Below are positions 31,008 to 54,292 of a DNA stretch of 64,000 nucleotides, piece after piece. The DNA comes from Acidobacterium sp. S8 (GTDB lineage: Bacteria > Acidobacteriota > Terriglobia > Terriglobales > Acidobacteriaceae), in contig NZ_LMUM01000028.1 of assembly GCF_009765985.1 (NCBI RefSeq), forward strand, positions 318,402 through 382,401. The letters run 5' to 3'. The translations under genes and the position numbers were made by a program. Below the pieces are notes generated by a model, which saw only the letters and a program-made list of their open reading frames with translations, did no database searches and was not told the origin of the DNA. Every line of letters begins with the position of its first letter. The first letter of the stretch is position 1.

Positions 31008-31027
31008 TTGGTATGATAGGTTAACAC
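31008..31027 (+). promoter_or_regulatory. operator-like motif, copy 1 (SMP-30 operon)
   Basis: TTGGTATGATAGGTTAACAC, 43 bases before the SMP-30 start codon. It matches the consensus YTGGYATNAYAGGTTRAYAY shared with four other sites in this window. The left part TGGTATNATAGG approaches the TGGTATNATACCA dyads bound by GntR-type regulators. Confidence 0.65.
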
Positions 31028-31070
31028 CCCTAAAGCATATCAATCACTAATTGCATGAACGGGGCAAGGC

Positions 31071-31949
31071 ATGAGTTGGGGTGAAATTGAATGTGTGCAG
31101 CAGGCGAATGCACTCTTGGGCGAAGGACCCACGTGGAGCAGCGCTGAAGACGTGCTTTATTGGGTGGACATCAAACGGCCTGCAATCTTTCGTTGGGATC
31201 CTATGCGTGGCCAAACGGGCCTCTGGCCGATGCCTCGACCAGTAGGGTTCGCTTCACCGACGCAATCCGGCGGCATGGTATTCGGAGACACCGAAGGATT
31301 GGGTTTTCTCGATCTCCAGACGGGAGAGGTCACACGCATCGGTGATCCTGAAAACCATCTTCCCCAGAACCGCTTCAATGATGGGAAAGTTGATCGCAGT
31401 GGCCGCGTCTGGGCAGGCACCATGAACGAGAAAGGCCCCGAGCCCACTGGAAGTCTCTATCGGCTCGATCCAGATGGCTCTATCAACCAAACGGCAACTG
31501 GGTTTGTATGTTCCAACGGATTAGGTTGGAGTCCCGACAATCGCACCATGTATTTTACCGATTCCATGGTCCGCACTATCTGGTCCTACGAATTCGATCT
31601 GGCGACTGGAACGCTCGGGGAGCGTCGAGTATTCGCTACATTGGCAGCGACTGACGGCTTTCCGGATGGACTGACCGTCGACAGCGAGGGTTTCGTCTGG
31701 TCTGCTGTCTGGGACGGTTGGCGCATCCTCCGCTATGCGCCCGACGGCACCATCGAGCGCACAATACGCATGCCAGTGCAGAGGCCGAGCAGTTGCATGT
31801 TCGGCGGCCTCGACCTGAAAACGTTATATATCACCTCGGCTTGCGTGGAGCTTGGCTGGAATGCGCTGAAGAACGGACCGCTCGCGGGCTCGCTTTTTGC
31901 CCTTTCGACGGATGTAGCTGGCCTGCCGGAAGTGCCCTTCGGCGGATGA
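31071..31949 (+). CDS. SMP-30/gluconolactonase-family lactonase
   Basis: A 292-residue cytoplasmic six-bladed beta-propeller. The metal ligands of the family are visible: the Glu in ALLGEGPTW, Asn in RFNDGKVD, Asn in VCSNGLGWSPD and Asp in DGFPDGLTVDSEG. It would hydrolyse a sugar lactone formed by a sugar dehydrogenase, giving the aldonate. The start ATG at 31071 follows a weak AAGG ribosome site. It is the first gene after operator copy 1 and is followed, 17 bases on, by the glycosidase gene at 31967. In the window its natural partner is the SDR dehydrogenase at 51.3 kb, which lies under a copy of the same motif. Confidence 0.9.
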   Translation: MSWGEIECVQQANALLGEGPTWSSAEDVLYWVDIKRPAIFRWDPMRGQTGLWPMPRPVGFASPTQSGGMVFGDTEGLGFLDLQTGEVTRIGDPENHLPQNRFNDGKVDRSGRVWAGTMNEKGPEPTGSLYRLDPDGSINQTATGFVCSNGLGWSPDNRTMYFTDSMVRTIWSYEFDLATGTLGERRVFATLAATDGFPDGLTVDSEGFVWSAVWDGWRILRYAPDGTIERTIRMPVQRPSSCMFGGLDLKTLYITSACVELGWNALKNGPLAGSLFALSTDVAGLPEVPFGG

Positions 31950-31966
31950 ATGGACGAGGAGACAAA

Positions 31967-34111
31967 ATGAATCGCAGAGATTTGGTGAAGCTCGGCGTCG
32001 CGCAGGCGGCTATGGTCGCAGTGCCAGGCGGCGTAGTTGTGCAAACAGCTGCTCAGGCCACTTCTAAAAATGCTGAAAGCGTAACAGTGAGCAATGCTCA
32101 ATTTCAATTAACTGTCACGCCGAGTGAGAACCTACAGTGCCGCCTGCTCCATGTTCCTACGGGCAGAGTCTTGGCAGAAGACGCCTATTCTTATTCTTTC
32201 GGAACCCCTGTTTTCTCCCGAGTGCAGAAAGAGGGAAACTCTTTGTTGCTTCAAGGCAGCATCCCTAAAACAGGCATGATGATTCAGCACCGATTTACGG
32301 CGGATCCTGCGAACCCATGGATCGAGGAACAACTGGGACTTAGCAATCACGGGGATATTCCTCTCGATCTTCATGATGTTCGAACAGGATTCGTGCTCCC
32401 GGTTCCATTGCAGGGAAAGCAGGTGCCGGCGAGTTGGGCTGGATTTAAGTTCACTGCGGTCCCTTTCAGAAGAGACCCAGCGGGGCATGATGAACAATAT
32501 GCAGATTTCACTTTAAACCAGGTGTTAAGCGAGCAGTATTTTTGTGAACTATGGTGGGATGAGACTACTGTCACCTCAGCTTTTGCATCGGAAGCGTGGG
32601 CATGGACCGATGGTAAACAAGGATTTCTGATTACGAAATACAGCCCGGGGGGATTGGAGCTTGCCCTCTTAGATCGTGTAATTATCTCTCCGGGAAAGCC
32701 AGGCTTGCGCTGGGGAGGCGTCGGCATTTATCGCGGAAATCCTGAACATGGAGCCTGGCTGCAACCGGGCGAGTCCCATCGCTTTGGGGCTACACGTATC
32801 AGTGCATATAAAGGCGACTGGCAGCAGGGCTATTACACTTTCCGCGCAGAGATGGAACAGCGTGGACATGGTTGCCCACCAGGATTCAACGCGCCCATTC
32901 ATTGGAACGAGATCTACGACAATAAATTATGGTGGTTGCCGGGCGATCAACAGGATGATCCTGCGATGCGCAAAAAATATTACTCACTAGACAGCATGAA
33001 AGAAGAAGCTGCAAAGGCTAAAGAGATTGGTTGTGAGGCGTTGTACATGGACCCCGGATGGGACACAAACTTTGGATCAAAGATCTGGGACGAAGAGCGA
33101 CTTGGCCCATACGATTCCTTCACTACCATGCTGCAGCGGGATTATGGCTTAAAGTCGTCGTTGCATACTCCGCTTTCCGGATGGTGTGATCCCAGTTCCT
33201 ATCCAACTTCTGCAAATCGCGTAGATCGCTTTGGACGACGGCGCATGTGGATACGAGAAAAAGGGTTTCTCGACTCGCCATTATGCGGATCCTCTGATCA
33301 GTACATCAACACTACAGCCGATCGTCTGAAAACCCTGGCGAGGGGCGGCGCGGCCTTTTTCATGTTCGATGGCACCAACTATCACGAAGAATGCTGGGAT
33401 CCAAATCACGGACACCGCTTGCCAGCACGCCGTGAAGAACACGATCAGGCAAAATGCCGTTTAGCGCGCATGGTCCATGCTGAATATCCGAATGTATTAA
33501 TCGAAATGCATAATCCAACTCCTCTATACTATGGACATGGACACTGTCCGGAAGGTCAAGGTGCTTGTCAAGGTGAGGGTTTCGATAGCATTTGGGGCTT
33601 CGAATTGATGTGGCAACCTATGCAGGACCTTCTCAGCGGTCATAGCATCGCGCTGTATTACTACAACCTGGCCTACAGCCTACCCATCTATTTGCACATC
33701 GATCTTAGAACGGATAATCAAAACGCTTTGGTCTTCTGGTGGAATGCTTCTACCTGCCGGCACCTGGGAATTGGCGGCACTCATCCCGATGCGGCGGTCC
33801 GCAAAGCGCAGAAGCAGGGCATGCTCAGCTACCGGCGGCTCAAGCATTATTTTGCCGCGGGAACATTTTATGGAATCGATGAACAGACACATGTGCACAC
33901 TGACGTGAAGACCAACACCGCAGTGATCAATTGTTTCAATCTCAGCAAGGTAACGGCCGAGAGGACAATTCGCTTCGCCCCGGCAAAGCTGGGCATGGCC
34001 TCTGGCAAAACCTATCAATTTTCCAGCGAAAGCTTTCATCGCTCTGGAGACACGTACATCGGCGAAGTGAGCATCCCCGCCGAAGGACACTTGCTCATAG
34101 AGGTCACGTAG
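31967..34111 (+). CDS. exported clan GH-D-like glycoside hydrolase, family not recognised (paralogue 1)
   Basis: A 714-residue protein with a Tat-like leader (MNRRDLVKLGVAQAAMVAVP). The start ATG 31967 has GAGGAG upstream. A long in-frame extension runs back through the lactonase gene and is an artefact. The N-terminal about 300 residues form a beta-sandwich typical of GH36/GH31-type enzymes. A TIM-barrel follows with CEALYMDPGWD (Asp362), FFMFDGTNYHEECWD (Asp468, candidate nucleophile), EMHNPTPLYYGHG and HIDLRTDNQNAL (Asp583, candidate acid/base). These positions parallel the DDGW / K-x-D / R-S-D motifs of alpha-galactosidase-like enzymes, but the motifs themselves differ, so I place it in or near clan GH-D without naming a family. 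A very similar gene is at 52.1-54.2 kb. It is co-transcribed with a lactonase and a GH2 enzyme. Confidence 0.7.
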   Translation: MNRRDLVKLGVAQAAMVAVPGGVVVQTAAQATSKNAESVTVSNAQFQLTVTPSENLQCRLLHVPTGRVLAEDAYSYSFGTPVFSRVQKEGNSLLLQGSIPKTGMMIQHRFTADPANPWIEEQLGLSNHGDIPLDLHDVRTGFVLPVPLQGKQVPASWAGFKFTAVPFRRDPAGHDEQYADFTLNQVLSEQYFCELWWDETTVTSAFASEAWAWTDGKQGFLITKYSPGGLELALLDRVIISPGKPGLRWGGVGIYRGNPEHGAWLQPGESHRFGATRISAYKGDWQQGYYTFRAEMEQRGHGCPPGFNAPIHWNEIYDNKLWWLPGDQQDDPAMRKKYYSLDSMKEEAAKAKEIGCEALYMDPGWDTNFGSKIWDEERLGPYDSFTTMLQRDYGLKSSLHTPLSGWCDPSSYPTSANRVDRFGRRRMWIREKGFLDSPLCGSSDQYINTTADRLKTLARGGAAFFMFDGTNYHEECWDPNHGHRLPARREEHDQAKCRLARMVHAEYPNVLIEMHNPTPLYYGHGHCPEGQGACQGEGFDSIWGFELMWQPMQDLLSGHSIALYYYNLAYSLPIYLHIDLRTDNQNALVFWWNASTCRHLGIGGTHPDAAVRKAQKQGMLSYRRLKHYFAAGTFYGIDEQTHVHTDVKTNTAVINCFNLSKVTAERTIRFAPAKLGMASGKTYQFSSESFHRSGDTYIGEVSIPAEGHLLIEVT

Positions 34112-34290
34112 TGATGCAATCCCCTGACGGGGTAAGGCCTTTTACAGGCTGGAAGGAAAACAGTTTCTTTCGCACCAGCGTGATCCGTGTGGCTTGCTTA
34201 AGCCAGACGATTTCACCCGCAGGAATCGGGGATGATGGAAGTGAAGAGACTCCGCGTAGCCGATAGCCTCATCCCAGGGAAAGGATACGC

Positions 34291-37200
34291 GTGAAGGACG
34301 AGCGGCCAACTTCGACTGGTCTCACTCGTAGAGACTTTCTTGCGTCGTCGACGGCAACCCTGGTCTTGGCTTCAGTAGGCCACTTCTCTTCCCGGGCGAG
34401 CTCCTTATCGGATCAGAACGGCAGCCACGTCGACCCGCAGTTATTTGACCGCACGTTGGTGTTGAGCGGTGCGGACTGGTGGATTCAGGCAGCTGGCACA
34501 AACAAACCTCAAATACCGGCGCAAGTGCCAGGAAATATCCAGACCGATCTCGAAAGAGCCCGATTGCTAACTCCTCTTTGGTATGGGACTGGCGATCCTC
34601 GCTTGGGGGAGGTCGCCACGAAGGATTGGTGGTATCACAAGGAGTTTGATTTACCTCAAGAATTACAAAATAAGCGCCTGCGCCTGATCTTCGGTGGCAT
34701 TGATTTCGAGGCAGAGATCTGGGTCAACGAACATCTTCTTGGCACTTGTGCGGGACAGTTTCGCCGGTTTGAATTCGATGTTACCGATGTCATGAAGACC
34801 AGCGAGAAAAATAAACTGGCGGTGAAGATCGCGCACATGCCGCAGGAGATTGGTCATTGCCTCGCCGTTTCTGACGGCGCATTGAGCGGTGCGGATACAC
34901 CAAATGACTTCATCGCTTGTTACGTTCATACACGCCAGGTATTGCAGGGTCTCAAGAGCGTTACAAATTTCGCTTACGACTGGGGATTTAACGTCTACAC
35001 CCTCGGTCTGTGGCAGGATGTTTGGCTTGAGGCCACCGGATCCAGCGCGATTCAATGGGTGCAGATAGAAACATTGCTTTCAGATGACTACCGTCACGCA
35101 ACGGTAAGAGTACGTCTCGAAGTCGATAGCAAGGTTGCTGTGAATACCCAAGCATCTTTCCTTGCCCAAGGGCACGGTCCCGACAATACCGTGGCTGTAG
35201 ATAGTCGATTGCAAGAGGGAAACAACTTTATTGAAGCTGAACTCTTATTCGATCAGCCCGCGCTTTGGTGGCCGAACGGTCAAGGAAAGCAACCGTTATA
35301 CAATTTAAAAGTCCGGCTGGTCGAGAGTACTTCTGGAAGCGTGCTTGACTTCAAAAGTACACGATTCGCGATACGGGAAATCCGCTGGCAGGCAACTCAA
35401 GGTGCCCCACCTGACTTTATCAATCCCTACTCTCTTCTAGTGAACGGCAGGCCAGTTCGCATGATGGGCTCGGATGTCGTTCCTCCCGACCTGTTCTTTG
35501 GCCGCAATGCTGAGCGTGCTACACGGCTGGTTCAACTGGCCCAAGCAGCAGGCATGAACACTCTGCGCATATGGGGCGGTGGAGTTACGTTGCCCGCTCA
35601 GTTCTATGACCAGGCTGACGAGCTCGGCATCATGCTTTCGCAAGAATTTCCCCTTGCTAACTCGTTGCCCGAAACAGGACCTGTCTTTCTCGCTAATTTA
35701 AGAGAGACCATCACCTGCATCGTAAAACAGCTGCGCAACCATCCCTCTATCGTTGAATGGGTCGGGGGCAATGAGATGCCCTGGCAACAAGGAACTGACC
35801 ATCCCGCTCTTCATGTCCTGGAACAAGTCTGCGCACTCAATGATTCAAGACTCTTCCGAGCCACAGATCCAATGCAGGGTTCGTTACACGGTCCGTGGAA
35901 TTACGAACCGCGAAGTCACTATCAGCACTACAACGCCGTCTTGGAGTCGATCTCTGGTGCCAATCCTGACTTGGGTGTTAATACCATAAACGCCATGCGC
36001 TATGGTGAATTTGGCACGCAGAGCCCGGCGAATCTTGAGGTCTTTCTGAGAGACTTCCCACCTGCATCACAATGGCCGCTGGATGATCTCCTTGACCCGG
36101 TACTGATTCACAAAAATGTTGTTCAAGCCGCGTTCACTCCTTTGTATTGGCTGATGAAGCCTGTAATACAAGAGCTTTTCGGCCCCATGGACGACCTCCA
36201 GACTCTTGTCGAGGCCGGTCAGTTTATTGGTGCCGAGGGACTTCGTTACGCCTACGATGAACTACGTCGCAAAGGAAACCGTATTGGAAGCATCACTAGC
36301 TGGGATTTCAATGAGCCTTGGACCAACGGAGCTGGCAGCTACTTGGTAGACTACGACGGCCGTACTTTGATGAAGTACGATTTTGTCAGGCAAGCTCTTG
36401 CTCCGGTTAGCGTGACGCTGCGTTACGATTCTATCCTCTATGATCCAGCGCAAGGACTGAATGCCACAGTGTGGCTTACCAGCGACGCGCCAACTCCGCT
36501 GTCACAACTGAACTGGCAGTGGGTCGCGCGAGATCGGCGTGGAGATGTGATCACGCAAGCAAGAGGAAACTCTTCAGTTCTTCCGCAGCAAGTCATTCCA
36601 TTAGGTCAACTGAATGTTAAGCCGCCCATGCAAACAGCCTTAGGGCCGATCTTTATAGAACTACAGTTGAAGGACAGTGAGGGGGCGCTTATGGCCGAGC
36701 GTCTTCATATCTTTGGGGCAGACAATACGTTCCTTTGGCCCTTTGATGGGCTGCTTCGAAATTCTGACATCGATGGCGATGATCAGACATTAATTGCATC
36801 CGGGGCACGCACCATCCGGGTTTTATGGATTCAAGATACAAATGAAGATCGATACCGGGATGTCGCGTGGTCTTTGCGTCGCTTTGGGGTTCGTTCCACC
36901 TTTATCTCCGCAAACCCCGAGGCTATCGAAAAAGTAGCCGCAGGACTGGCACAAGATTACGACGCCATCTGGTTAGGAGAAGGCGATTACAAGAAAGCGA
37001 CTTCGCTTGCCTCCAGGCTTGGCTCAAGGAGCCTTGCCATACTTGCCAAAGCTGTGGCTTCTGGCGTGGGACTTGGTATCGAGGGCGGATGGAGCGGTTA
37101 CGGGAACACAGGCCTGGAAAGCACCCTTTTAGCTCAGGCATTGCCAGTTACCTTTGCGGGGGCAGGAAATGCGCAAACACGTGGTCGAAGTGCCATTAAA

Positions 37201-38340
37201 GTTAAAAATAACGCTCATCCTCTCGTATCCGGAAAGGTAGGCGCTTCTTTTCCCAACGTCAGCGGCTATAACCTCGTTATGCCAAAAGATAAAGCGGATG
37301 TCCTGATTGAAACGACCAATGGGGACAGTCTTTTGGTCGCTAGCACCCACGGAAAAGGGCGGACCGTCGCATATGCATCGGGCCTCGTTGGCAACAATGG
37401 GTGGGTCAATTACCCCATGATCGACGGCTATGAAGGAGCCAACGTCGATTGGGGCTGGAGTCTTCAATCCTGGGATGGTTTTCCCTTTTTCATGGCACGT
37501 TTGCTCTTCTGGCTGTCAGGAGCTTCGGATGAAGTGGTGAGTGGATTTAGTCTTCCGGAAAAGGACACCCGCCTGATTCGGCCAGTGCGGCGGACGAACC
37601 TAGAAGCGCGTTGCACGCCCGCGATGACCGAAGGCGAAGACGAGACGATTAATATTCAAGTTAAGAACACGGGTAAGATGACGGCTCTCTTCTGCGAGCC
37701 GCACCCGTTATTGGAATACCGAACAGACATCACGATACTCAACAATCATGCTTTTGTTCCACCCGGAGAGTCCGGCACAATTTCGCTCCGTGCACCGATC
37801 AAGGACGAACTATCGTTGGTTCAGATCGGCTGGCGAATCTCCTGTTGGAATGCAGACGATATTTTGATTCAACCAAGCGAGGATATTCTGCTTTCGCTCG
37901 GAAGGCGGGACTCGACCTGTCGCGAATACGGAGCAGCCCTGCCTACAAGCGTAGTAGAGCTAAAAGGTGGTCGCCCGGATTCTTCTCTAGTTCCATCCTT
38001 GCTACGCGGTTCTAGACAACATATACGATTCTCCTTCGATGTCAGCCGCTCTAAAGCGACTCTTCAGTCGCGACTAAGAATTCATACTGCCGATCGCCAT
38101 AGCGGTGAGGGTCCGCTGATCGAGATAGGCATGAACGGTAAGAAATTCGAAGAGCATTTAGGATCCGGGCTCGGTATCCAACTCTCCGACCCCGCTCACC
38201 TGGCCTTCCCGGCAACCGCGCAATTCGCACTGCCTGCTGGGACGCTGAAAACGGGAACTAACATTCTTAATGTTCGCGTATCCAATGACTCTTGGTTTAC
38301 CTGGGATGCGATGGATTTACTCACCTTACCCATGGCCTAG
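34291..38340 (+). CDS. GH2-type exo-glycosidase fused to an amidotransferase-fold domain
   Basis: A 1349-residue exported enzyme with a Tat signal (LTRRDFLASSTATLVLASVG). The start is GTG with AAAGGA six bases upstream. Residues about 50-400 comprise the GH2 sugar-binding and Ig-like domains (WWYHKEFDLPQELQNKRLRL, IDFEAEIWVNEHLLGTCAGQ). Residues about 400-720 form the TIM barrel with Glu495 in VGGNEMPW (acid/base) and Glu675 in WDFNEPW (nucleophile). It resembles beta-mannosidase and exo-beta-glucosaminidase members of GH2. Residues about 840-1075 look like a ThuA/GATase-1-like fold (LGIEGGWSGYGN, HPLVSGKVG, THGKGRTVAYASGL). The rest is beta-type. This domain combination is uncommon. It is the third gene of the operon that begins at 31071, after a 179-base gap. 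Confidence 0.8.
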   Translation: MKDERPTSTGLTRRDFLASSTATLVLASVGHFSSRASSLSDQNGSHVDPQLFDRTLVLSGADWWIQAAGTNKPQIPAQVPGNIQTDLERARLLTPLWYGTGDPRLGEVATKDWWYHKEFDLPQELQNKRLRLIFGGIDFEAEIWVNEHLLGTCAGQFRRFEFDVTDVMKTSEKNKLAVKIAHMPQEIGHCLAVSDGALSGADTPNDFIACYVHTRQVLQGLKSVTNFAYDWGFNVYTLGLWQDVWLEATGSSAIQWVQIETLLSDDYRHATVRVRLEVDSKVAVNTQASFLAQGHGPDNTVAVDSRLQEGNNFIEAELLFDQPALWWPNGQGKQPLYNLKVRLVESTSGSVLDFKSTRFAIREIRWQATQGAPPDFINPYSLLVNGRPVRMMGSDVVPPDLFFGRNAERATRLVQLAQAAGMNTLRIWGGGVTLPAQFYDQADELGIMLSQEFPLANSLPETGPVFLANLRETITCIVKQLRNHPSIVEWVGGNEMPWQQGTDHPALHVLEQVCALNDSRLFRATDPMQGSLHGPWNYEPRSHYQHYNAVLESISGANPDLGVNTINAMRYGEFGTQSPANLEVFLRDFPPASQWPLDDLLDPVLIHKNVVQAAFTPLYWLMKPVIQELFGPMDDLQTLVEAGQFIGAEGLRYAYDELRRKGNRIGSITSWDFNEPWTNGAGSYLVDYDGRTLMKYDFVRQALAPVSVTLRYDSILYDPAQGLNATVWLTSDAPTPLSQLNWQWVARDRRGDVITQARGNSSVLPQQVIPLGQLNVKPPMQTALGPIFIELQLKDSEGALMAERLHIFGADNTFLWPFDGLLRNSDIDGDDQTLIASGARTIRVLWIQDTNEDRYRDVAWSLRRFGVRSTFISANPEAIEKVAAGLAQDYDAIWLGEGDYKKATSLASRLGSRSLAILAKAVASGVGLGIEGGWSGYGNTGLESTLLAQALPVTFAGAGNAQTRGRSAIKVKNNAHPLVSGKVGASFPNVSGYNLVMPKDKADVLIETTNGDSLLVASTHGKGRTVAYASGLVGNNGWVNYPMIDGYEGANVDWGWSLQSWDGFPFFMARLLFWLSGASDEVVSGFSLPEKDTRLIRPVRRTNLEARCTPAMTEGEDETINIQVKNTGKMTALFCEPHPLLEYRTDITILNNHAFVPPGESGTISLRAPIKDELSLVQIGWRISCWNADDILIQPSEDILLSLGRRDSTCREYGAALPTSVVELKGGRPDSSLVPSLLRGSRQHIRFSFDVSRSKATLQSRLRIHTADRHSGEGPLIEIGMNGKKFEEHLGSGLGIQLSDPAHLAFPATAQFALPAGTLKTGTNILNVRVSNDSWFTWDAMDLLTLPMA

Positions 38341-38633: not shown

Positions 38634-39842
38634 TCAAGCTAGAAAATCCCCACACCCGTCAGCCGAAATAAATACCGATGGACGATCGCTGACGCTGGAG
38701 AGGACTATCGTTGCACCTGCAGCCTCGATGTTTGTAATTGAGTCAATCCCAGTCGGCAGCTTGCACAGAAAGATAATGTAGTGCGCTATCTTCTTCCCGC
38801 CGGCAGGAATAACACACCGCTGGGGAGTGTCGAATAGGGGCCCGCGGCGAACTGTCTCCTCGGAGCCCAGCGGTAGCGGGGTTGTACCAAATTCCATGCC
38901 CCGCGCTTGCGTTCTTCCATTCCAGGGAGGGTCCAGCCGCGAGTAATTCTCTTCCCAGATGGTCATGTACGGGAAATCAGCCCGGCGGAAACAGTAGCCA
39001 ATCCCCAGACGCTCTTTCCAATTCACTGCCAGCATATACCCCTGCTTACGCTGCGGATCAAGTTGCACGCCGGCGATAAAGCCGAAACCTTTTTCAGCAA
39101 AAGGCTGACTCAAATCGGCGAATCCCTTCCCGTTGGCGAGCGGTGCATGAGGCCATGCAAACTCGTGATCGTTCGCGAGCATGGAGCCACCGTCGTAGTC
39201 GGCTGGCCAGGTTATTCCGCGGTTTCCGGAAGCGAATAGCGTGCTCTCGCCCTCCTTTAATAAGGGCGGACCGAAGGTGACATGTTGCACCCAATCGAAG
39301 GTATGCTCCGCCGCGCTCTCATTCGTGACTGTTTCGCGTACGTAGGCTACGCTCTCACCCATACCCAGGCGAATCTCTCGTTCGAAGGCAAGATGTGCTG
39401 TTGGAAGCCTTACCTGCCACCTCGCGAGGGCTTCACCGGACGGCGCCGGCGACAATAGGTTCCAGCGTGCATTGGCCGCTTCCCCATGCAAGCTCAGGCC
39501 AGCCGCAGCCTGCTCAGCCGAGGGTACGCCGAAGTAATCCAAACACAAGCAATGCCCAGTAAAGCTGACGAAAAACTTGCGTACGTCTGCCGGCCCATAG
39601 GTTGCCGGCAGATCTTCCCCTGGTGTCTCTTCCGGATCAAACGTAACCCACGGAGCCTTCCAAAGGGTGTTCAGTGACGCGTAACCGTCATGCTCTAGGA
39701 ACCGCAACTCGGCCACGTGCCCTCCGCTGGTCAGGGCTACAAGCTCAACAACACCGTTGCTCAGCCGCACGGCCTCGCGGTTATTCCAGCGGACCGATAG
39801 AGCACCGACATCAGTAGCCGACTCTCGCGAAGTTGATCCCAT
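38634..39842 (-). CDS. galactose-mutarotase-like sugar-binding/epimerase-type protein
   Basis: A 402-residue cytoplasmic protein with the beta-supersandwich pattern of aldose 1-epimerase-like proteins: VRLSNGVVELVALTSGGHVA near the start, several central strands with VRETVTNESAAEHTFDWVQH, and TPQRCVIPAGGKKIAHYIIF near the end. The best start is the ATG at 39842, behind a GGGGGATGGG ribosome site. Members of the fold interconvert sugar anomers or act as sugar-binding modules. The exact family is not certain. The gene is divergent from the GntR regulator, and operator copy 2 lies between the two, so it is probably part of the sugar regulon. Confidence 0.65.
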   Translation of the reverse strand: MGSTSRESATDVGALSVRWNNREAVRLSNGVVELVALTSGGHVAELRFLEHDGYASLNTLWKAPWVTFDPEETPGEDLPATYGPADVRKFFVSFTGHCLCLDYFGVPSAEQAAAGLSLHGEAANARWNLLSPAPSGEALARWQVRLPTAHLAFEREIRLGMGESVAYVRETVTNESAAEHTFDWVQHVTFGPPLLKEGESTLFASGNRGITWPADYDGGSMLANDHEFAWPHAPLANGKGFADLSQPFAEKGFGFIAGVQLDPQRKQGYMLAVNWKERLGIGYCFRRADFPYMTIWEENYSRLDPPWNGRTQARGMEFGTTPLPLGSEETVRRGPLFDTPQRCVIPAGGKKIAHYIIFLCKLPTGIDSITNIEAAGATIVLSSVSDRPSVFISADGCGDFLA

Positions 39843-40020
39843 AGCCCATCCCCCATTAGCCGATCGACGGAGACACAAACATAGTTACCTGAAGAATTCA
39901 TCTTCCAGTCATCATGCTGTTCAGGCCGTGCAGCGAATTCGGTTATTCATAACGCTCTGCATAGCCGCGGCTCCACTCGAAAGAGAGCAGCTTGTTCTAC
40001 CTCTCTTGATCGAGATTATA

Positions 40021-40040
40021 CTGGCATCACAGGTTAACAT
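40021..40040 (+). promoter_or_regulatory. operator-like motif, copy 2 (mutarotase-like gene / gntR intergenic region)
   Basis: CTGGCATCACAGGTTAACAT, in the 381-base region between the divergent mutarotase-like and GntR genes. It matches the five-copy consensus. It could serve autoregulation of the GntR gene or control of the divergent gene. The rest of the region shows no other repeat. Confidence 0.65.
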
Positions 40041-40223
40041 GGGGATACCTTGCCAAGTCTAATATTAGGAGGAGCACTCTCTGAGAAGCGTTGAGCGGCG
40101 ATGATGAAGACAATTCAGCCCGCAAAACGATACTCTGTTCTCGAAGCATCTTAACCAGGCAAGCTTAGAACGACATAATAAAATATGTCTGCGGTTGGAC
40201 CACTGTTCGGAGGAAGTCTTCAA

Positions 40224-45607: not shown

Positions 45608-45757
45608 CGCACAATCCCTCCAAACAAAAATAGATCTGCGCCTCGATACGCTGTTTGCCCTTGTCTCTCTTCCCACCCCAGGTTTCTGCGTGCAACCCGG
45701 TAGCGACGCAAACATCCATTGATTTCGCGGACCAATAGTGTCACATAGGCTTTTGGG

Positions 45758-45777
45758 GTGTCAACCTGTTATGCCAA
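45758..45777 (-). promoter_or_regulatory. operator-like motif, copy 5 (TonB receptor)
   Basis: On the minus strand TTGGCATAACAGGTTGACAC, about 150 bases before the receptor start. The TTGACA inside the motif looks like a -35 box, so binding here could block RNA polymerase. Confidence 0.65.
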
Positions 45778-45838: not shown

Positions 45839-46939
45839 CTATAGATACTCAAGCCGCGCCACACCCAAGCCGTCGGCGATTTGGTCGAGGTCTATCTTGA
45901 GTTGGTCGGCGACAGGAATTCCGTATAACTGCCGGTCCTCCTCAACTGCCCATTCACGGTCTCCGGGAGCCATGACCATCATGTCCTTCCGTCCAGTCAT
46001 CGCTCTAAGATCGCCAAGATAGGCATCCATCGCATGGTTGTAGGCCTCAGAAGAAACAAAGCGGCTGGGATCGATGACGATGAAGAAGTGCCCCAAACGG
46101 CGATGTGTAGCAAAATCCGGGCCGGCCATGCCAAGCAAGCGACTGCAATGAGGCATTCCGGTCATGACTGCACTGAGCACTTCGACCATGCTTGCCAGAG
46201 CAGCGCCTTTGTAACCGTAGTTGATCCCACCTAGAGGCAAAAGAGCGGCGGAATGGGCTGGAACCTGGGTGGGCGCTCCATCGGTATCGACCGCCACATC
46301 CGGCGGAAGCGATAGCCCTTCATTCATCAGATCCTGCACACGGTTCCAGGGAATGACGCTGGTCGCCATGTCCATCAGAAACGGCCGCGCTCCCATAACT
46401 GGAGCGGCGAAAGCCAGTGGGTTGGTTCCATGGAACGGCTTGACTCCGTCGTGGGGCAGGACGAACGAATCTGAATTACACACCCCAAGCGCTACATATC
46501 CCCGCTGGGCCGCCTGGAGGACATAGCATCCAGCTGATCCGAAGTGTGAAGAGTTGATCACGGAAACCGCAGCGATACCGGATTCCTGCGCTAGCGTGAC
46601 AGCGTGATTTATGGCAAAGTAACTGGCGTGATGGCCGAAGCCGTTATCGGCGTCGACGATACCCGTACCTCGCTCCGTCCGGGTAAACGCGAGTTGAGGC
46701 CTAGGATTGATTCGACCCGTTTGAACCACCTTGGCATAGTGCACCAACAAGCGGATTCCGTGACTGTCCACACCGCGTAAAGACGTCTCAGTGAGCGCCT
46801 CAGCGACCGAGCGCGCTGCAGCGGGATCGGTTCCAGCGGCAACCAGCACAGCAGTGGCAAATTTATCGATTCGATCCGCGGTTGCCCGTTTTGGCCGCGT
46901 ACCTGCGCCTTCCCCGCGCTTGGCCGCCTCGAAGCTCAT
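45839..46939 (-). CDS. Ldh_2-family (malate/L-lactate-dehydrogenase-like) NAD(P)H oxidoreductase
   Basis: A 366-residue cytoplasmic enzyme. The family marks are clear: LRGVDSHGIRLLVHYAKVVQ, the catalytic-region VINSSHFGSAGCYVLQAAQR, KPFHGTNPLAFAAPV and LLPLGGINYGYKGAALASMV. Members of this non-Rossmann family reduce 2-keto acids or diketo acids to hydroxy acids (for example 2,3-diketogulonate reductase, ureidoglycolate and sulfolactate dehydrogenases). The ATG at 46939 has GGAAGAG upstream. Operator copy 3 is 37 bases upstream of the start codon. Here it may handle a keto-acid made from the sugar after dehydrogenation and dehydration; this is inference. Confidence 0.9.
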   Translation of the reverse strand: MSFEAAKRGEGAGTRPKRATADRIDKFATAVLVAAGTDPAAARSVAEALTETSLRGVDSHGIRLLVHYAKVVQTGRINPRPQLAFTRTERGTGIVDADNGFGHHASYFAINHAVTLAQESGIAAVSVINSSHFGSAGCYVLQAAQRGYVALGVCNSDSFVLPHDGVKPFHGTNPLAFAAPVMGARPFLMDMATSVIPWNRVQDLMNEGLSLPPDVAVDTDGAPTQVPAHSAALLPLGGINYGYKGAALASMVEVLSAVMTGMPHCSRLLGMAGPDFATHRRLGHFFIVIDPSRFVSSEAYNHAMDAYLGDLRAMTGRKDMMVMAPGDREWAVEEDRQLYGIPVADQLKIDLDQIADGLGVARLEYL

Positions 46940-46976
46940 GCTCTTCCTTGTACGGTTATTTGGCAGACTAGAATAA

Positions 46977-46996
46977 CTGGCATCATAGGTTAATAC
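46977..46996 (+). promoter_or_regulatory. operator-like motif, copy 3 (Ldh-type gene)
   Basis: CTGGCATCATAGGTTAATAC, directly upstream of the minus-strand Ldh-type gene but in the opposite orientation to the other copies relative to its gene. It differs from the consensus only at permitted positions. Confidence 0.6.
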
Positions 46997-47183
46997 GATA
47001 AAAGCCTAATACAAACACTGGCATTGGTCAAAGCGGTCGCTAGGGAAGACCTGGGGAGACGGAGGCGCCGACGCGTACCTGAGTTACTGTGAGGTTATGT
47101 CGACATAGGGCAGGTCGCTCGCCATCCGGGTACGTTGACGATGGGCTCTCTGAGTTCCCTCCGAATTGCCGAGCTCAATTCGA

Positions 47184-47515
47184 TCAGGCTGCGGAAAGAT
47201 GCTGGTTCATCGCCTGTTGTGCGGCATCCTGATCCCGTTGGTCAACGGCATCGTAGGCTTTGCATGGCCTTGAAATGCGAGCCGCTCAGTGATCTCGTCG
47301 CGTCGGTCTCTCCCCAACACTCATTGCTTCCAAGGCACCTTCAATTTGGCCAGGTCGGCATCGTTTATAGTCCTGGCGATCTGCCTCGCCATCGCCACTT
47401 CGACCTGTCTGCGCGCATTAAAGAGCGTCTTGCGGCTCTCTTTGTCTCCGGCAGGAATGTTCGGTGAGACGAACACGCTCCCGCCTGCGGGCATTGAAAT
47501 GTATCTGAGGTTCAT
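47184..47515 (-). pseudogene. decayed FCD-GntR regulator
   Basis: Pieces of the C-terminal FCD domain are readable in different frames. KTLFNARRQVEVAMARQIAR (before a stop at 47321) corresponds to NLFDARRFVEAAMARQ of the intact regulator at 40.2 kb. Further on, ERLAFQGHA and KAYDAVDQRDQDAAQQAMNQ with HLSAA and a stop at 47184 match its end. The DNA-binding half, the middle of the FCD domain and the frame are lost. The locus therefore once had a second related regulator immediately upstream of the Ldh-type gene. Confidence 0.65.
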
Positions 47516-47537
47516 GCCGTTTCCTCGTTCTGACCTC

Positions 47538-48800
47538 TCAATGATGCTCTGCACCCGTGGTTGAAGAACTGAAAAGCCGAGCGTTTCCCCTGACGTAGCT
47601 CAAAGCTCCGGATGGCGATTCGAGGTTGGTTGTTTGTCCGGAGAGAGGCGGCTTGGCCCCGGTCCAGGCCCAGTATTCCTGCGTGGGGTCGGTACTATTT
47701 GCGAAGTCGGTGATGAATTTCACCGCGAGTGACGGCTTTGTTTTTGCCAATGTGTAGGCGATCCATCCATTGGCAACCGACCAGGCGCCGTTGTCATATT
47801 GACCTGGACCAAAGGAACAAGCCCCGCCGTGGATGTAATAGCACTGGGCCCAGTCCGTCGAGCTTTCTCGCATGTAGCCCTTCATCGTCAGCTTGTCGTA
47901 GTTGTTGACCAGGTAGGTGCTGATCGCTGTTATTTGTGTAGCGTTCGCTGCGCCAACGAAGACCGCATAGGCTGAACCCTCGATATCAATCTGCTTATTT
48001 TGGCCCGTAGCTGCATAGAACATGCCTGTGCCGGAATCCCAAAGTTCGGAAAGACTAGCGCGAATCCTGCCGGCGCGCGCGGCGAACAATGCGGCATCTT
48101 GGGCGTCTCCGACGGCTTTATAGAGAAGAACCATGTCAATCGAAGCCTGATAGTACAACACCGAACCCATAAGATCGTCGCCCGTCTTTCGGACCATATC
48201 CTGGAAGCCCCACGGAACCCATTGGTCGCCGGCCAGTACCTGGACGAGACCATTCCCCTCATTCACAGGAACGGCAAGGAGGGCAGTCTTCATTGCAGCA
48301 GCGTCTTTTAAGAACGCCGACTTGTTTCCTGTTTTCTGGTAGTACAGGTACTCCATCTGCGGCACATAGAAAGCGCCATCTCCAGTGGCATGGTGGTGCA
48401 GCAGATCCCACGCCGAATAGTAGACCTCAGCAGCTCCTGTCTTCTTCAGGCAAATCGGAAATTCGCCGGAGGCATTTTTCGCGGCGATAAACTTCTCCGC
48501 AATATTCAGGATTTGTGCGGGAGTAAAGTAGCTGGGATAGTTCACCATAGTTATTCCTGTATCCGCCGCAAACGAGTAATCGTACAGTCCAGGAGAAGCC
48601 GTCCAACCGTCTGTTGAATCGGTAAAAAGAAAGTGGTTTGTCTTCAGGTTGTCATTCGCCGCTTTCGTGAGGCGGTCCTGAACGGAGGAGGACGAAGCCC
48701 GTCGAGTATCTGCGTTCGGAGTAGGAGGCGCTGCGGCATAGGTCATCAGAACGATCAGCCCCCCCGATAGGATTCCCAGAATAGACTTGAACTCCGTCAT
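47538..48800 (-). CDS. secreted six-hairpin ((alpha/alpha)6-type) glycosidase-like protein
   Basis: A 420-residue exported protein. The start at 48800 has GAGGAGAG upstream; an extension to 48863 does not fit a signal peptide. After the leader (GILSGGLIVLMTYAAA), repeated helical hairpins with aromatic and acidic motifs follow (YYSAWDLLHHHATGDGAFYV, QVLAGDQWVPWGFQDMVRKT, GQYDNGAWSVANGWIAYTLA, DPTQEYWAWTGAKPP). This is the look of (alpha/alpha)6-barrel enzymes such as GH15/GH63/GH78-type glycosidases, but I cannot name the family. The WVPWGFQ and YDNGAW motifs probably line the active site. It lies upstream, on the same strand, of the GntR remnant and the Ldh-type gene. Confidence 0.6.
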   Translation of the reverse strand: MTEFKSILGILSGGLIVLMTYAAAPPTPNADTRRASSSSVQDRLTKAANDNLKTNHFLFTDSTDGWTASPGLYDYSFAADTGITMVNYPSYFTPAQILNIAEKFIAAKNASGEFPICLKKTGAAEVYYSAWDLLHHHATGDGAFYVPQMEYLYYQKTGNKSAFLKDAAAMKTALLAVPVNEGNGLVQVLAGDQWVPWGFQDMVRKTGDDLMGSVLYYQASIDMVLLYKAVGDAQDAALFAARAGRIRASLSELWDSGTGMFYAATGQNKQIDIEGSAYAVFVGAANATQITAISTYLVNNYDKLTMKGYMRESSTDWAQCYYIHGGACSFGPGQYDNGAWSVANGWIAYTLAKTKPSLAVKFITDFANSTDPTQEYWAWTGAKPPLSGQTTNLESPSGALSYVRGNARLFSSSTTGAEHH

Positions 48801-49046
48801 TTGATTCTCTCCTCTGAGCATGCGTAACCGTCTCTTGTAGAAATTGGCTCGCAAGGGTGTCAAGCAAGTTCAATATTGTGAACGAAAGCTACACTCCGCA
48901 ATTGCGGCAGACAGGTTTCAAATGGAGTCGCGGCTTTTTCCAGTAGCATAGGACGCGCTACAGGTGCCTCACTTTTTTCGGCGTTTGCAAATTGATACAG
49001 TTGACGAACCAGGGCACCGCCAAACTGATTATCAAATCATGATTGA

Positions 49047-50126: not shown

Positions 50127-50215
50127 AAATATTATCGCGTTTTGTAAGCAGCGATGTACAAGTATTCTTTGCGTTTCATGCTGCTTCTTCGCTTACACCA
50201 TTTGTGGAAAACGTT

Positions 50216-51241
50216 TTAGTGGCCCGCTCTGCTAAGGATCGTGATGGCGATCATTAAACAGACAACACCTGCCGTCATGGAAACTTTCGCCGTCTTGCCC
50301 GAGTTCTTCCATTCTCCAAATAGCGAACCCCACCCCGCACTGGCGATCACTGCTCCGGACATAAACACCGGCCATCCAACCACCAGGCCGAGCGCGCCGA
50401 TTTTTATTACCCCATTCCCATAGACCACAATGCTCCCCAGCCAAAGCAAGCCCATCATCACTACCAGCGGCCAATAGCCGGCCGTTCCGCCTGCGCGAAA
50501 GAGGCCGAAGGTACGATTTCGGACTAGGAGGCTGAGCGTATATACCACTCCCGGAATACCGCCTGCCAGAAGAACCGGAAGCCACACAGCAATGCTTGCC
50601 GCGGATGTTGAAGGATGTTGTTGTGCGACCGCGGCAGTAATGGTGGCACCCGCCGCAAGCGCCAAATTGAGAGCGGCGGTGAGCGTACCACCTATTCCGG
50701 CATACAAAAATCCTCGCATCGAGTGGCCCGCTATCATGGTTCCCGTTCCTTGATGTTGCTCACGCGCTCGCCCGGCGAATCCGCACACGCCTACACCGAT
50801 TAACACCATGAGAACGCCCAACGCAACTAGTACACTTGTCGATGCCTGCATCGATGTGCCGGCGTAGAGAATGGGCAAAAGCGTGCCCATGGCTGCCGCA
50901 CATCCCAGGCCGACTGCTGCTCCCACGGCAACCCCGACCAACGGAAAAGACATGCCCAGTAGCAGAACTCCCGCGCCCCATAACAAGCCCATCAGACCCA
51001 TGCGCAAAAGAGATGCTAACGGTGTTTGTTGGAAGGCATCGATCGGGTGAGGCACGGCAGCCCACGTCATCGCGACAGGAATAGCCCACAGACTCAACAC
51101 CGTCCACAATAGCCAGATGTTTTCCCATTTCCAGCGGGACATGAGCCGCATGGGAATGGCATAGGCGCCGTTCATGACCGCCGCGAGCAGAACCAGCAAA
51201 AAACCTGTGACGATGCCGATTTCCGTAAGACTTAGATTCAA
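50216..51241 (-). CDS. rhaT: RhaT-type L-rhamnose/H+ symporter family permease
   Basis: A 341-residue inner-membrane protein with about ten hydrophobic helices and the RhaT pattern: GFLLVLLAAVMNGAYAIPMR then WKWENIWLLWTVLSLWAIPV, GAAVGLGCAAAMGTLLPILY, PGVVYTLSLLVRNRTFGLFR and WPVFMSGAVIASAGWGSLFG. The family imports L-rhamnose with protons in enteric bacteria; other substrates are possible here. The start appears to be TTG at 51241, with AAGGA nine bases upstream, 15 bases after the SDR gene. It is the last gene of the operon glycosidase-SDR-permease behind operator copy 4. It is the best clue to the sugar handled by this locus. Confidence 0.8.
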   Translation of the reverse strand: MNLSLTEIGIVTGFLLVLLAAVMNGAYAIPMRLMSRWKWENIWLLWTVLSLWAIPVAMTWAAVPHPIDAFQQTPLASLLRMGLMGLLWGAGVLLLGMSFPLVGVAVGAAVGLGCAAAMGTLLPILYAGTSMQASTSVLVALGVLMVLIGVGVCGFAGRAREQHQGTGTMIAGHSMRGFLYAGIGGTLTAALNLALAAGATITAAVAQQHPSTSAASIAVWLPVLLAGGIPGVVYTLSLLVRNRTFGLFRAGGTAGYWPLVVMMGLLWLGSIVVYGNGVIKIGALGLVVGWPVFMSGAVIASAGWGSLFGEWKNSGKTAKVSMTAGVVCLMIAITILSRAGH

Positions 51242-51256
51242 GCTCGATCGTCCTTC

Positions 51257-52036
51257 TTATTCCGGTGAACCAGCAATCGGCACGAGAAGGCCGCCATCGA
51301 CGACAACGATAGAACCCGTCATGAAGCTGGCCCTGTCACTGGCCAGAAACGCGATCACTTCTCCTATTTCCGATGGTTGCGCAATACGCCCCAGAGGGTG
51401 CATTTTGTCTAGAATACTTTTCAGTTTGCCCGGATTCGTGTCGAGTTCAATGATGCTTTGGATCATGGGCGTGTTGACGGTGCCGGGGCAGACACAGTTC
51501 ACGCGAACGTTGCGCGACGCCATATCGACTGCCATCGATCGCGTCAGGCCAATCATGGCGTGTTTGCTGGTGGAATAGGCGACGACGTTCTTCTGAGACG
51601 CCAACCCCTGCACGCTGGAGACATTGACAATCGAGCCCTTGCCGCGCTTCAACATCTCCGGGATAGCGTACTTCGACATCAACCAGTGCCCTTTCAGGTT
51701 GACGTTCATGGTTTTGTCCCAGACTTCTTCCGTGGTGGTCACCGGATCGCCGAAGGTCTGAATACCAGCGTTGTTTACCAGAACATCGATGCCGCCAAAA
51801 CGATCGACCGTGGCCAGGATTGCTTTCTCAACGTCAGCCACATTGGAAATATCGGCAGCCACGGAATCGACGCCTTTGGATAGGGCAGTTAAACTCTTGA
51901 CTGCATCGGACGCCGCATCTCTGCTCCAATCCACAATCATTATCTCCGCACCCTGGCGAAGCATGCACTCCGCGCTGGCGAGACCAATGCCCTTGGCTCC
52001 GCCGGTCACAATTGCTACTTTATTGCTGAGATCCAT
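51257..52036 (-). CDS. short-chain dehydrogenase/reductase, probable sugar dehydrogenase
   Basis: A 259-residue classical SDR. TGGAKGIG (residues 11-18) is the NAD(P)-binding loop. DVLVNNAGIQTFGDP follows, then the catalytic Ser in VNVSSVQGLAS and Tyr-x-x-x-Lys in AYSTSKHAM. PGTVNTPM and the C-terminal FMTGSIVVVDGG complete the family pattern. In this setting, between a glycosidase and a RhaT-type permease and in one regulon with an SMP-30 lactonase, a role as NAD(P)-dependent sugar 1-dehydrogenase (L-rhamnose, L-fucose or similar) is likely. The substrate cannot be read from the sequence. Confidence 0.85.
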   Translation of the reverse strand: MDLSNKVAIVTGGAKGIGLASAECMLRQGAEIMIVDWSRDAASDAVKSLTALSKGVDSVAADISNVADVEKAILATVDRFGGIDVLVNNAGIQTFGDPVTTTEEVWDKTMNVNLKGHWLMSKYAIPEMLKRGKGSIVNVSSVQGLASQKNVVAYSTSKHAMIGLTRSMAVDMASRNVRVNCVCPGTVNTPMIQSIIELDTNPGKLKSILDKMHPLGRIAQPSEIGEVIAFLASDRASFMTGSIVVVDGGLLVPIAGSPE

Positions 52037-52056
52037 TCTCTTGACCCTCGATATTT

Positions 52057-54216
52057 CTAAGTGACTTCGACGAGTGTATGCCCTAATGCGGGAATGCTCA
52101 CTTTGCCCACGTAGGCATCGCTGGATCGGCTGAATGCGGCGCCGACAAATTGATAATTCTTACCCGATGTAAGGCCCAGCTTTGCCGGTTCAAATCGAAT
52201 CTCCTTTTCAATTGCATGGTTATCCAAGTTGAAGCAGTTCATCACTGCTGTCTTTCCCTGCCGATCTGCATGCACGTGCGTCTGCTCATCAATTCCATAA
52301 AACCCGCCCACTGCAAAATAGGGCTTCAGACGCCGATAGTTGGCCATGCCTTCTTTCTGTGCCTGGCGAACCGCGGGATCAGGGTGGGTGCCGCCGATGC
52401 CGAGGTGCCGATTGGTAGAGGCGTTCCACCAGAACACCAAAGCATTCTGATTGTCGGTCCTGAGATCGATGTGAATATATAGCGGCAAGCTATAGGCGAG
52501 ATTGTAGTAATAGAGGGCAATGCTGCGGCCGCTCGTGAGATCTTCCATCGGCTTCCACATCAACTCAAAGGCCCATACCGTATCAAAGCCCAGTGCCTGG
52601 CATACCTCCTCGCCTTCAGGACACTTTCCGTAACCGTAGTAGATCGGGCAGCCGCGCATCGGTGCCCCGCCGAGGGCCGGATCGTGCATCTCGATCAAGA
52701 CTTCGGGAAACTCAGCGTGGACCATCCGCGCCAGGCGGCATGTGGCCTGGCAATGCTCTTCCAGTCTCGACGGCACCTGATGCCCGTGATTGGGGTCCCA
52801 GCACTCCTCGTGGTACATCGTTCCATCAAACATGAAGAAGGCGGCGCCGCCTTGGCAAAGGGCTCTAAGGCGTTCGAGCGTGACGTTGAGGTATTGTTGC
52901 GATGCTCCGCAGAGCACTGGATCCTGAAACCCGCTGGAGCGATCCCACATGGCTCGCTCCCCAAAACGGTCGAGTCGGTGAGCATCCTGCGGATATGAGC
53001 TTGGGTCGCACCAGCCGGACAAAGGAGTATGGAGGGAAGACTTCAATCCGTAGTCTGTCTTTAGCATCGTTGTGAATGCCTTGTATGAACCAAGCCTCTC
53101 CTCATCCCAGACCTTCGAAGCAAAGCTCGTGTCCCAGCCGGGATCCTGGTAGAGAGCTTCGCAGCCGATAGCTTTCGCCTTGGCGGCCTCCTCCTTCATG
53201 CTTGCCAGGGTGTAATACTCTTTTCTCATTGCGGGATTATTCTGCTCGTCGCCGGGAAGCCACCATAGCTTGTTGTCATAGAGCTCGTTCCAATGAACCG
53301 GCGGGTTGAATCCGTCGGGAACTCCCTGTCCGCGTTTTTCCATCTCACCGCGAAAGGTATAGTAGCCCTGCATCCAATCGCCGGAAAAGGCCGTGACGCG
53401 CGTAACCCCGAATTTATGTGACTCACCCGGTTTGAGCCACGCTCCGTGCTCAGGATTGCCTCGGTAAATGCCGATGCCGCCCCAGCGGAACCCCACTTTG
53501 TTTTGCGGCAGAGCCACCCGGTCCAGAACGGCAAACTCCAAACCGCCTGGACTGAATTTCGAGACGAGAACGCCCTGCTTGCCATCCGTCCATACCCATC
53601 CTTCAGCAGCAAACCCAGGCGTCACGCTAGTATTCATCGTCCAGAGTTCAGATGAATATGGTCCAGTAAGAATCTGATCCAGAGAAAAGTCCGCATACTG
53701 CAGCCGGTGGCCATTGGGTTCCCGCCGGAACGGAATGGCAATAAGCTTATGTTGCGCCCAGCCGTCTTCTACCTTCCCGCGTTCGAGCTGCAACGGGAGC
53801 ACGAACCCACTTCGCGCATTGTGAAGATCGAGCGGCGCTGAACCAGTGTTCGTAAACGTAATCTGCTCTTCGATCCATGAGGACTCTGGGTCGACAGTAA
53901 ATCGATGCACGATTTCCAGACCCAGGTCCGTCTTTCCTTGAAGAACGATCGACGCACCGTCTTTTTTCGCCTCGGAAAAGACGGGAGAGCCGCCAGAATA
54001 CGAGTAAGCGTCTGCAAGGATCTTGCCGGTAGGCACATGGACCAGCTTGCACTGAAGCCCCGTCCCTGGGGTAACCGTCAATTCAAATTGAGCGTTCTTC
54101 AACGTCGAAGGAGCATACTTTGACTCAGCGCGTGCCGAAGGCGCTACTATGACGGCGGGCAATGCAACCATGGCCGTTTGGGTAGCTGCAAGCTTCATCA
54201 TGTCTCTGCGATTCAT
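52057..54216 (-). CDS. exported clan GH-D-like glycoside hydrolase, family not recognised (paralogue 2)
   Basis: A 719-residue paralogue of the enzyme at 31967, alignable from the leader (MNRRDMMKLAATQTAMVALP) to the last residues (PALGHTLVEVT against PAEGHLLIEVT). The start at 54216 has GAGGGA upstream. The candidate catalytic segments are conserved: ALYQDPGWDTSF, FFMFDGTMYHEECWD, EVLIEMHDPALGG and HIDLRTDNQNAL. The WNELYDNKLWWLPGDEQ region and the TPLSGWCDPSSYP stretch are nearly identical in both. This copy leads the operon with the SDR and RhaT-type genes, behind operator copy 4. The two copies may act on different linkages or positions of one polysaccharide. Confidence 0.7.
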   Translation of the reverse strand: MNRRDMMKLAATQTAMVALPAVIVAPSARAESKYAPSTLKNAQFELTVTPGTGLQCKLVHVPTGKILADAYSYSGGSPVFSEAKKDGASIVLQGKTDLGLEIVHRFTVDPESSWIEEQITFTNTGSAPLDLHNARSGFVLPLQLERGKVEDGWAQHKLIAIPFRREPNGHRLQYADFSLDQILTGPYSSELWTMNTSVTPGFAAEGWVWTDGKQGVLVSKFSPGGLEFAVLDRVALPQNKVGFRWGGIGIYRGNPEHGAWLKPGESHKFGVTRVTAFSGDWMQGYYTFRGEMEKRGQGVPDGFNPPVHWNELYDNKLWWLPGDEQNNPAMRKEYYTLASMKEEAAKAKAIGCEALYQDPGWDTSFASKVWDEERLGSYKAFTTMLKTDYGLKSSLHTPLSGWCDPSSYPQDAHRLDRFGERAMWDRSSGFQDPVLCGASQQYLNVTLERLRALCQGGAAFFMFDGTMYHEECWDPNHGHQVPSRLEEHCQATCRLARMVHAEFPEVLIEMHDPALGGAPMRGCPIYYGYGKCPEGEEVCQALGFDTVWAFELMWKPMEDLTSGRSIALYYYNLAYSLPLYIHIDLRTDNQNALVFWWNASTNRHLGIGGTHPDPAVRQAQKEGMANYRRLKPYFAVGGFYGIDEQTHVHADRQGKTAVMNCFNLDNHAIEKEIRFEPAKLGLTSGKNYQFVGAAFSRSSDAYVGKVSIPALGHTLVEVT

Positions 54217-54272
54217 GTCGTTCCCTCTTTCGTACATTCCTATGCGCAAATTTTGGCCTGCACACTGTTGTG

Positions 54273-54292
54273 ATGTCAACCTGTGATGCCAG
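54273..54292 (-). promoter_or_regulatory. operator-like motif, copy 4 (glycosidase-SDR-RhaT operon)
   Basis: On the minus strand CTGGCATCACAGGTTGACAT, 56 bases before the start codon of the glycosidase. It contains TTGACA, a possible -35 box. It also lies about 107 bases from the divergent CRTAC1 gene, which it might influence. Confidence 0.65.

Follow-up and report, generated by a model that had tools for sequence, protein, structure and literature searches.

A predicted NanR-type direct-repeat regulon in a glycan cluster of Acidobacterium sp. S8

In Escherichia coli, the regulator NanR binds its operators and is released from them by N-acetylneuraminic acid (Neu5Ac). According to excerpts of three reports, NanR differs from most FadR-type GntR proteins in that it reads GGTATA-type direct repeats two or three bases apart (PMC8012715, PMC3658417, PMC4494728), and its (GGTATA)n operators at nanATEK, nanCMS and nanXY let a single regulator govern several units that lie apart. 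Another member of the FCD group, the D-galactonate repressor DgoR, binds its aldonate through a metal in the FCD pocket, as given in an excerpt of its description (PMC7674646). Here we analyse a 64,000-nucleotide stretch of DNA from Acidobacterium sp. S8 (contig NZ_LMUM01000028.1, positions 318,402 to 382,401; hereafter the window), in which scattered units likewise share a motif: five sites precede five transcription units of a glycan cluster that encodes an FCD-GntR protein in its middle. With good, if not complete, confidence we take these sites to be the operators of the cluster's own NanR-like repressor, which would keep the five units shut until a sugar acid binds.

The original prediction described five copies of a 20-bp motif as the mark of a probable sugar regulon. 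All five match the pattern YTGGYATNAYAGGTTRAYAY exactly, at the coordinates and on the strands first given (Table 1), and the observation is confirmed in a stronger form than the first description. Instead of 15 conserved positions out of 20, we count 13 that are identical in all five copies and 6 more that keep purine or pyrimidine (19/20), and the motif is longer than 20 bp, with columns 25, 27 and 31 also invariant in the five. When mismatch counts were compared with shuffled DNA or with a reversed control pattern, the five exact sites were the only matches in the window at three mismatches or fewer (mean of the shuffles 0.14) and the only ones in the whole genome (5,437,681 bases in 38 contigs) at two or fewer. 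A genome scan can also reveal an excess of the motif elsewhere or inside genes, and none was found: the 9 further genomic matches, each with three mismatches, are not above the 13 matches of the reversed control, and these weaker sites were rejected as extra members of the regulon. The window scan bears out that the motif is absent before the TonB-type receptor genes at 684-4358 and 26813-30082 and before the GH36 gene at 58736-61303, all assigned from domain scans, outside of which stands an open reading frame (ORF) of 1182 amino acids at 15805-19353. The idea of a small dispersed repeat, or of similarity by chance, draws on the mutual resemblance of the copies and nothing further, and it is hardly credible: it was rejected on the motif counts in the window, the genome, the phylum and the family (the last two given below), and the flanks of the five sites differ, with no invariant column across 60 bp upstream.

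The 18-base core of the motif, TGGYATNAYAGGTTRAYA, has the layout TGGYAT-NAY-AGGTTRA, with two GG boxes 9 bp apart. Read as hexamers, GGYATN and GGTTRA stand three bases (AYA) apart. The spacing is that of the NanR direct repeat, although the hexamers differ (the second half-site is AGGTATA in E. coli and AGGTTRA here), and judged by this layout the motif is a NanR-type direct-repeat sequence, a kind that the original prediction did not recognise. A matrix was built from ten sites, those of the window and those of palsa_350, a metagenome-assembled genome that appears in our sets as G556, G482 and L043 (apparently one genome). When it was run over 20,003 bases covering the three nan operons of E. 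coli K-12 and their surroundings, its top three scores went to the three NanR operators (10.9 bits each; next 9.1), a value that permuted matrix columns reached in 0.0002 of 20,000 trials. The cluster motif is unlike the inverted repeats bound by DgoR, and the palindrome of the FadR subfamily (TKGT/ACMA, with roughly 3 nt separating its GT and AC boxes; consensus taken from an excerpt of PMC4494728) was not seen on inspection of 13 aligned sites, orthologs included. Beyond the core, the five window sites share A25, A27 and T31 (flank shuffles: count, P 0.0029; clustering, P 0.0001); across the 13 sites A27 and T31 stay invariant, A25 is present in 12 and G28 in 10. We read these columns as a third box, degenerate and in direct orientation, some 16 bp from the second, whose role we infer; an inverted half-site was considered for this box and dropped when the alignment of the 13 sites showed the direct arrangement.

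The protein encoded at 40185-40964 carries GntR and FCD domains in the domain scan. Among proteins of solved structure, its best match is E. coli NanR itself (6on4, 165 bits; next 55.5), with DgoR appearing only as a weaker match in the Protein Data Bank (7c7e, 53.6 bits). The base contacts of NanR are given as Arg59, Arg69, Arg73 and Asn89 in an excerpt of PMC8012715. In an alignment of the regulator with 24 chosen homologs, the three arginines (R61, R71 and R75 here) are kept in 25/25 proteins, and the position of Asn89 is serine in 14/25, the cluster's own protein among them, and asparagine in 11/25. The metal ligands Asp172, His176, His222 and His244, together with Arg128, are likewise kept in all 25 (here D174, H178, H222, H244 and R130). 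If the protein starts at 40224, about 20 residues precede the first helix, and more if it starts at 40185; the corresponding extension of NanR, which serves cooperative binding, has 32 residues. Three more NanR-like FCD-GntR genes are found in the same genome (C14:179537, C3:288774 and C30:12239), with 107-128 bits to the NanR model.

We then turned to related genomes. The exact 18-base core occurs in 1 of 396 Acidobacteriota genomes, namely that of S8, and in 3 of 398 family genomes: S8 itself (G000, five sites), palsa_350 (five) and G523 (two). All of these copies belong to the cluster; the reversed control gave 2 matches in the 398. Orthologs of the FCD-GntR protein at E 1e-36 or better, with at most six candidates scored per genome, were also found in 3 of the 398 (94% identical in palsa_350, 80% in G523). 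These are the same three genomes, and the other 395 have neither ortholog nor exact core; a handmade Fisher estimate for 3/3 against 0/395 is about 1e-7, although it cannot single out the regulator by itself because regulator, motif and cluster travel together. With all candidates scored in 100 relatives, 21 genomes reached E 1e-20 or better against the regulator; S8 is one of them, and the top match outside S8 is 34% identical. The order of G485 (288 genomes) yielded no close relative of the regulator at E 1e-55 or better, an empty answer that is in itself uninformative. The original prediction had named the FCD-GntR protein as the obvious candidate regulator, and the co-occurrence in 3/398 genomes, the kinship with NanR and the recovery of the E. 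coli NanR operators by the matrix support this assignment well at the level of sequence.

In palsa_350 a single 46.8-kb contig carries all five exact sites, and the 12 other matches of this genome all have three mismatches (control 18). G523 has one site that is exact over 20 bases and three with two mismatches; the contig with the cluster, C32, carries three of the four, and C4 the remaining one. In total G523 shows 15 matches at three mismatches or fewer against 4 for the control, 11 of them with three mismatches. Two of these 11 were inspected and not counted: one is enclosed by ORFs that overlap, and the other precedes an ORF by 378 bp. One three-mismatch match, ATGGTGTAAYTGGTTAACAC, is present in all three genomes and falls inside a tRNA-Glu gene in S8. 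Judged by gene order, sites precede the glycosidase-SDR-RhaT unit, the TonB-type receptor and the Ldh_2 gene in all three genomes, and the lactonase-glycosidase-GH2 unit and the GntR/DUF4432 region in two; the Ldh_2 site (copy 4) has the opposite orientation to its gene both in S8 and in the two relatives. Between the window and palsa_350, 92/100 core positions are identical, as are 48/60 in the next 12 bases, against 82/200 upstream and 69/140 further downstream; for G523 the figures are 46/60, 18/36, 39/120 and 32/84. By this comparison the orthologous sites are conserved while their flanks drift, in genomes of three genera. As for the G523 site on C4 (C4:134063-134082, L177; two mismatches), it lies off the cluster contig, about 100 bp before a contig-end gene that resembles the window ORF 57342-58739 (45%); an adjacent ORF resembles, on inspection by eye, a mannonate dehydratase.

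Several observations weigh against the regulator and its operators as set out above. The protein falls short of the NCBIfam NanR model (NF003011, PRK03837): this is its best match, at 249 bits against a cut-off of 260, and both orthologs score 244. In simulated DNA of the same dinucleotide make-up, scores like those of the E. coli operators arise 0.23 times per 20 kb, and the three operators are near-identical, so that the matrix result counts as one independent success. The third repeat is weaker than in E. coli and lies about 16 bp from the second rather than 8 bp. At 80 loci with nearer or farther relatives of the regulator, exact sites were found in L043 only, which holds the 94% identical ortholog, and four others had three-mismatch matches only; distant NanR-like proteins therefore do not show the motif, and we rejected them as bearers of the same operator (1/80 loci). 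In G523, no counterpart of operator 2 at three mismatches or fewer is present in the 397 contig bases before the GntR ORF, and autoregulation therefore rests on two genomes. Finally, regulator, motif and cluster occur as one block. Only one genome, G059, parts them, and it speaks for the regulator: its glycosidase is 52% identical, it has neither a GntR ortholog nor the exact motif, and its locus has no site (best score 3.5 bits). The lack of operator 2 in G523 and the joint occurrence of regulator, motif and cluster would also suit a regulator encoded elsewhere that binds the motif, with the GntR protein acting at other sites. We regard this as improbable, given that the exact core is absent from all 395 family genomes lacking the GntR ortholog, that the direct repeats of the motif are arranged as in the operators of NanR, the closest relative of the GntR protein with a solved structure, and that no second regulator domain was found among the cluster proteins scanned. 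A local NanR-type regulon under the FCD-GntR protein, a variant of the known NanR system, is predicted here with strong comparative support.

In the mechanism that we propose, the FCD-GntR protein would hold five transcription units off, probably including its own gene. Its dimers would bind cooperatively on TGGYAT, AGGTTRA and the weaker third box and, sitting near the start codons, would block RNA polymerase. The operators would then be freed by an aldonate-type sugar acid, which the SDR and lactonase of the cluster would produce, so that receptor, glycosidases, permease and oxidoreductases would be switched on together. Repression is likely in view of the NanR homology and the position of the sites. 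The same protein could instead bind the sites and, in the presence of the sugar acid, serve mainly to activate the genes, in keeping with the RefSeq label of E. coli NanR as a dual regulator, with an excerpted account of CitO, another FCD protein, as an activator, and with the AT-rich sequence directly upstream of sites 2 and 5. We consider activation unlikely, since sites 1, 4 and 5 lie 43, 37 and 56 bp before start codons (from the coordinates, with the glycosidase start at MNRRDMM), like the E. coli nanA operator (40 bp), where NanR is described in an excerpt of PMC8012715 as repressing from downstream of the polymerase site; moreover, orientation is variable, with site 4 inverted.

How far the repressor's operators overlap promoters is a separate matter. 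The original prediction placed TTGACA in copies 4 and 5 and called repression by promoter overlap plausible, but the hexamer is in copies 3 (45758) and 5 (54273), and copy 4 reads TTAATA. Consensus promoter scans of sites 2, 3 and 5 found a promoter that begins from the hexamer at site 5 alone (TTGACA-18-CAAAAT; 0.3 expected by chance), none at site 3, and at site 2 a single promoter-like match (40151-40179) that does not overlap the site. Position 16 is A in 4/13 sites, and the better reading of TTRACA is that it closes the second half-site, which is AGGTTRA here and AGGTATA in E. coli. Of the sugar regulon first put forward, then, sequence comparison lends good support to a local regulon governed by the FCD-GntR protein, whereas overlap with a -35 box is not supported as stated, and promoter overlap by the operators is not established. 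It is very improbable that the motif is itself a promoter element, a -35 box or the site of an alternative sigma factor. Such an element would account for TTGACA in copies 3 and 5 and for the consensus promoter at site 5, and YTGGYA resembles the -24 box of sigma-54 promoters. Against it speak the inversion of the Ldh_2 site in all three genomes, the results at sites 2 and 3, the confinement of the motif to one cluster, and the TTRA box, which on inspection is one base off the sigma-54 spacing.

As regards the inducer of the proposed repressor, six other polar residues that contact Neu5Ac in NanR (Asn165, Arg203, His214, Asn215, Ser218 and Gln221), mapped by hand on the alignment, are kept in 0/6 cases here; in the aligned set, arginine at 205 and glutamine at 221 each occur in 2/25 proteins. 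Four metal ligands and one carboxylate-binding arginine kept, with six polar sialate contacts lost, point to another sugar acid as the likely inducer. The sugar-oxidation genes of the cluster encode an SDR, a lactonase and an Ldh_2 oxidoreductase, and an aldonate-type sugar acid is the likely inducer that we infer, with the metal-assisted aldonate binding of DgoR as the model. NanR-like regulators on plasmids of Rhizobium and Cupriavidus, 38-42% identical to the cluster's protein, adjoin sugar-acid genes such as oiaX and otnK/otnC, but unlike the cluster they come with ATP-binding cassette (ABC) or tripartite ATP-independent periplasmic (TRAP) importers and other enzymes. Three candidates for the sugar were set aside: apiose or apionate, prompted by the Rhizobium relative, has no sequence evidence in the cluster; mannan has hints from the GH5 and GH2 proteins only; and for sialic acid, NanE is encoded in all three genomes yet outside the cluster, sialate use by these bacteria still being possible.

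The system resembles that of E. coli in its FCD-GntR protein, its direct GG repeats 9 bp apart and its kept base-contact arginines and metal ligands. It differs in its targets, a cluster of glycosidase, receptor and sugar-oxidation genes, in the change of most sialate contacts, and in a broken FCD-only sibling of the regulator that adjoins. In palsa_350 (G482 C72:14381-14869) this sibling is an intact protein, with a match to the regulator (62.7%) that is confined to the FCD half, and lies between the rhamnosidase-like gene and Ldh_2; in the window, the remnant stands in the same place and is split over two frames; and no FCD-only copy is shown on the G523 contig C32. A protein search with P0103 returned 56 proteins, the first 29 clusters of which (159-177 amino acids, 65-100% identical) have no GntR domain; left out of the 29 were P0026 (87%) and P0092 (81%), which are nearer the full-length regulator, and P0249, with 51% coverage. 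All 29 keep R130, D174, H178, H222 and H244, as well as W205, A218 and G221. The same pocket without a DNA-binding half makes an inducer sink or a poisoning partner the natural readings, and we offer as a tentative suggestion that the sibling may pair with the repressor or soak up inducer, tuning the NanR-type array, and that it has been lost here and kept in the close relative. A narrow literature search gave nothing on such a sibling; a broader one was not empty. The palsa_350 cluster (G482 C72:24000-39000) also holds extra genes, namely a second NanR-like GntR gene (29241-30032), an Ldh_2 relative and two SDR relatives.

These comparisons provide a concrete prediction of operator and regulator for an Acidobacteriota glycan cluster, and among the literature titles in the matches listed there was none on an operator and regulator of this type in Acidobacteriota. 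If the prediction is true, the unusual direct-repeat reading of NanR would not be tied to sialic acid or to enterobacteria, and would have been kept across phyla while the ligand changed.

Table 1. Predicted operators and genes of the cluster, in window coordinates
Feature	Coordinates	Strand	Remarks
Operator 1 (predicted)	31008..31039	+	Comprises 20-base core (31008-31027) and third box; lactonase start codon 43 bp downstream
Operator 2 (predicted)	40021..40052	+	Core 40021-40040; flanked by DUF4432 gene (-) and GntR gene (+); likely GntR start 40224 is 183 bp downstream
Operator 3 (predicted)	45746..45777	-	Core 45758-45777; precedes TonB-type receptor; kept in three genomes
Operator 4 (predicted)	46977..47008	+	Core 46977-46996; 37 bp before Ldh_2 start codon; inverted in three genomes
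Operator 5 (predicted)	54261..54292	-	Core 54273-54292; 56 bp before glycosidase start 54216 (MNRRDMM); kept in three genomes
NanR-like FCD-GntR regulator	40224..40964	+	ORF opens at 40185; relatives begin at Met 40224
SGL lactonase	31071..31949	+	Best solved relative 7plb (named Smp-30/Cgr1 family protein)
Glycosidase twin 1	31964..34111	+	Shares 67% identity with twin 2; without Pfam match
GH2-type glycosidase with GATase1-like domain	34291..38340	+	Domain scan
DUF4432 protein	38634..39878	-	Domain scan
GH5-type (Cellulase) protein	40982..41980	-	Domain scan
TonB-type outer-membrane receptor with CarboxypepD_reg domain	42101..45715	-	Domain scan
Ldh_2 oxidoreductase	45839..46939	-	Domain/family scan
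Broken two-frame remnant of FCD-only regulator sibling	47160..47515	-	Comparison with palsa_350
Rhamnosidase-like protein	47538..48863	-	Weak, below Pfam cut-off
RhaT-like sugar permease	50216..51241	-	Domain/family scan
SDR, similar to sugar 1-dehydrogenases	51257..52036	-	Domain/family scan
Glycosidase twin 2	52057..54216	-	No Pfam match; predicted GH36-like fold

Among the remaining cluster proteins scanned, no other regulator domains were found. A structure-database search found no solved relative of the cluster glycosidase, and the relatives of the twin glycosidases are unnamed or hypothetical among the best 120 of 742 matches. The fold predicted for twin 2 is GH36-like (predicted local distance difference test, pLDDT, 75; best match 4fnr, template modelling score 0.57, 12% identity), and the twins point to a family of GH36-like enzymes that has no match in Pfam. 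Divergent from operator 5 lies a gene for an FG-GAP / ASPIC-UnbV protein (54399-56168, +), which adjoins this operator in G523 too (73% identical) and may be a further target.

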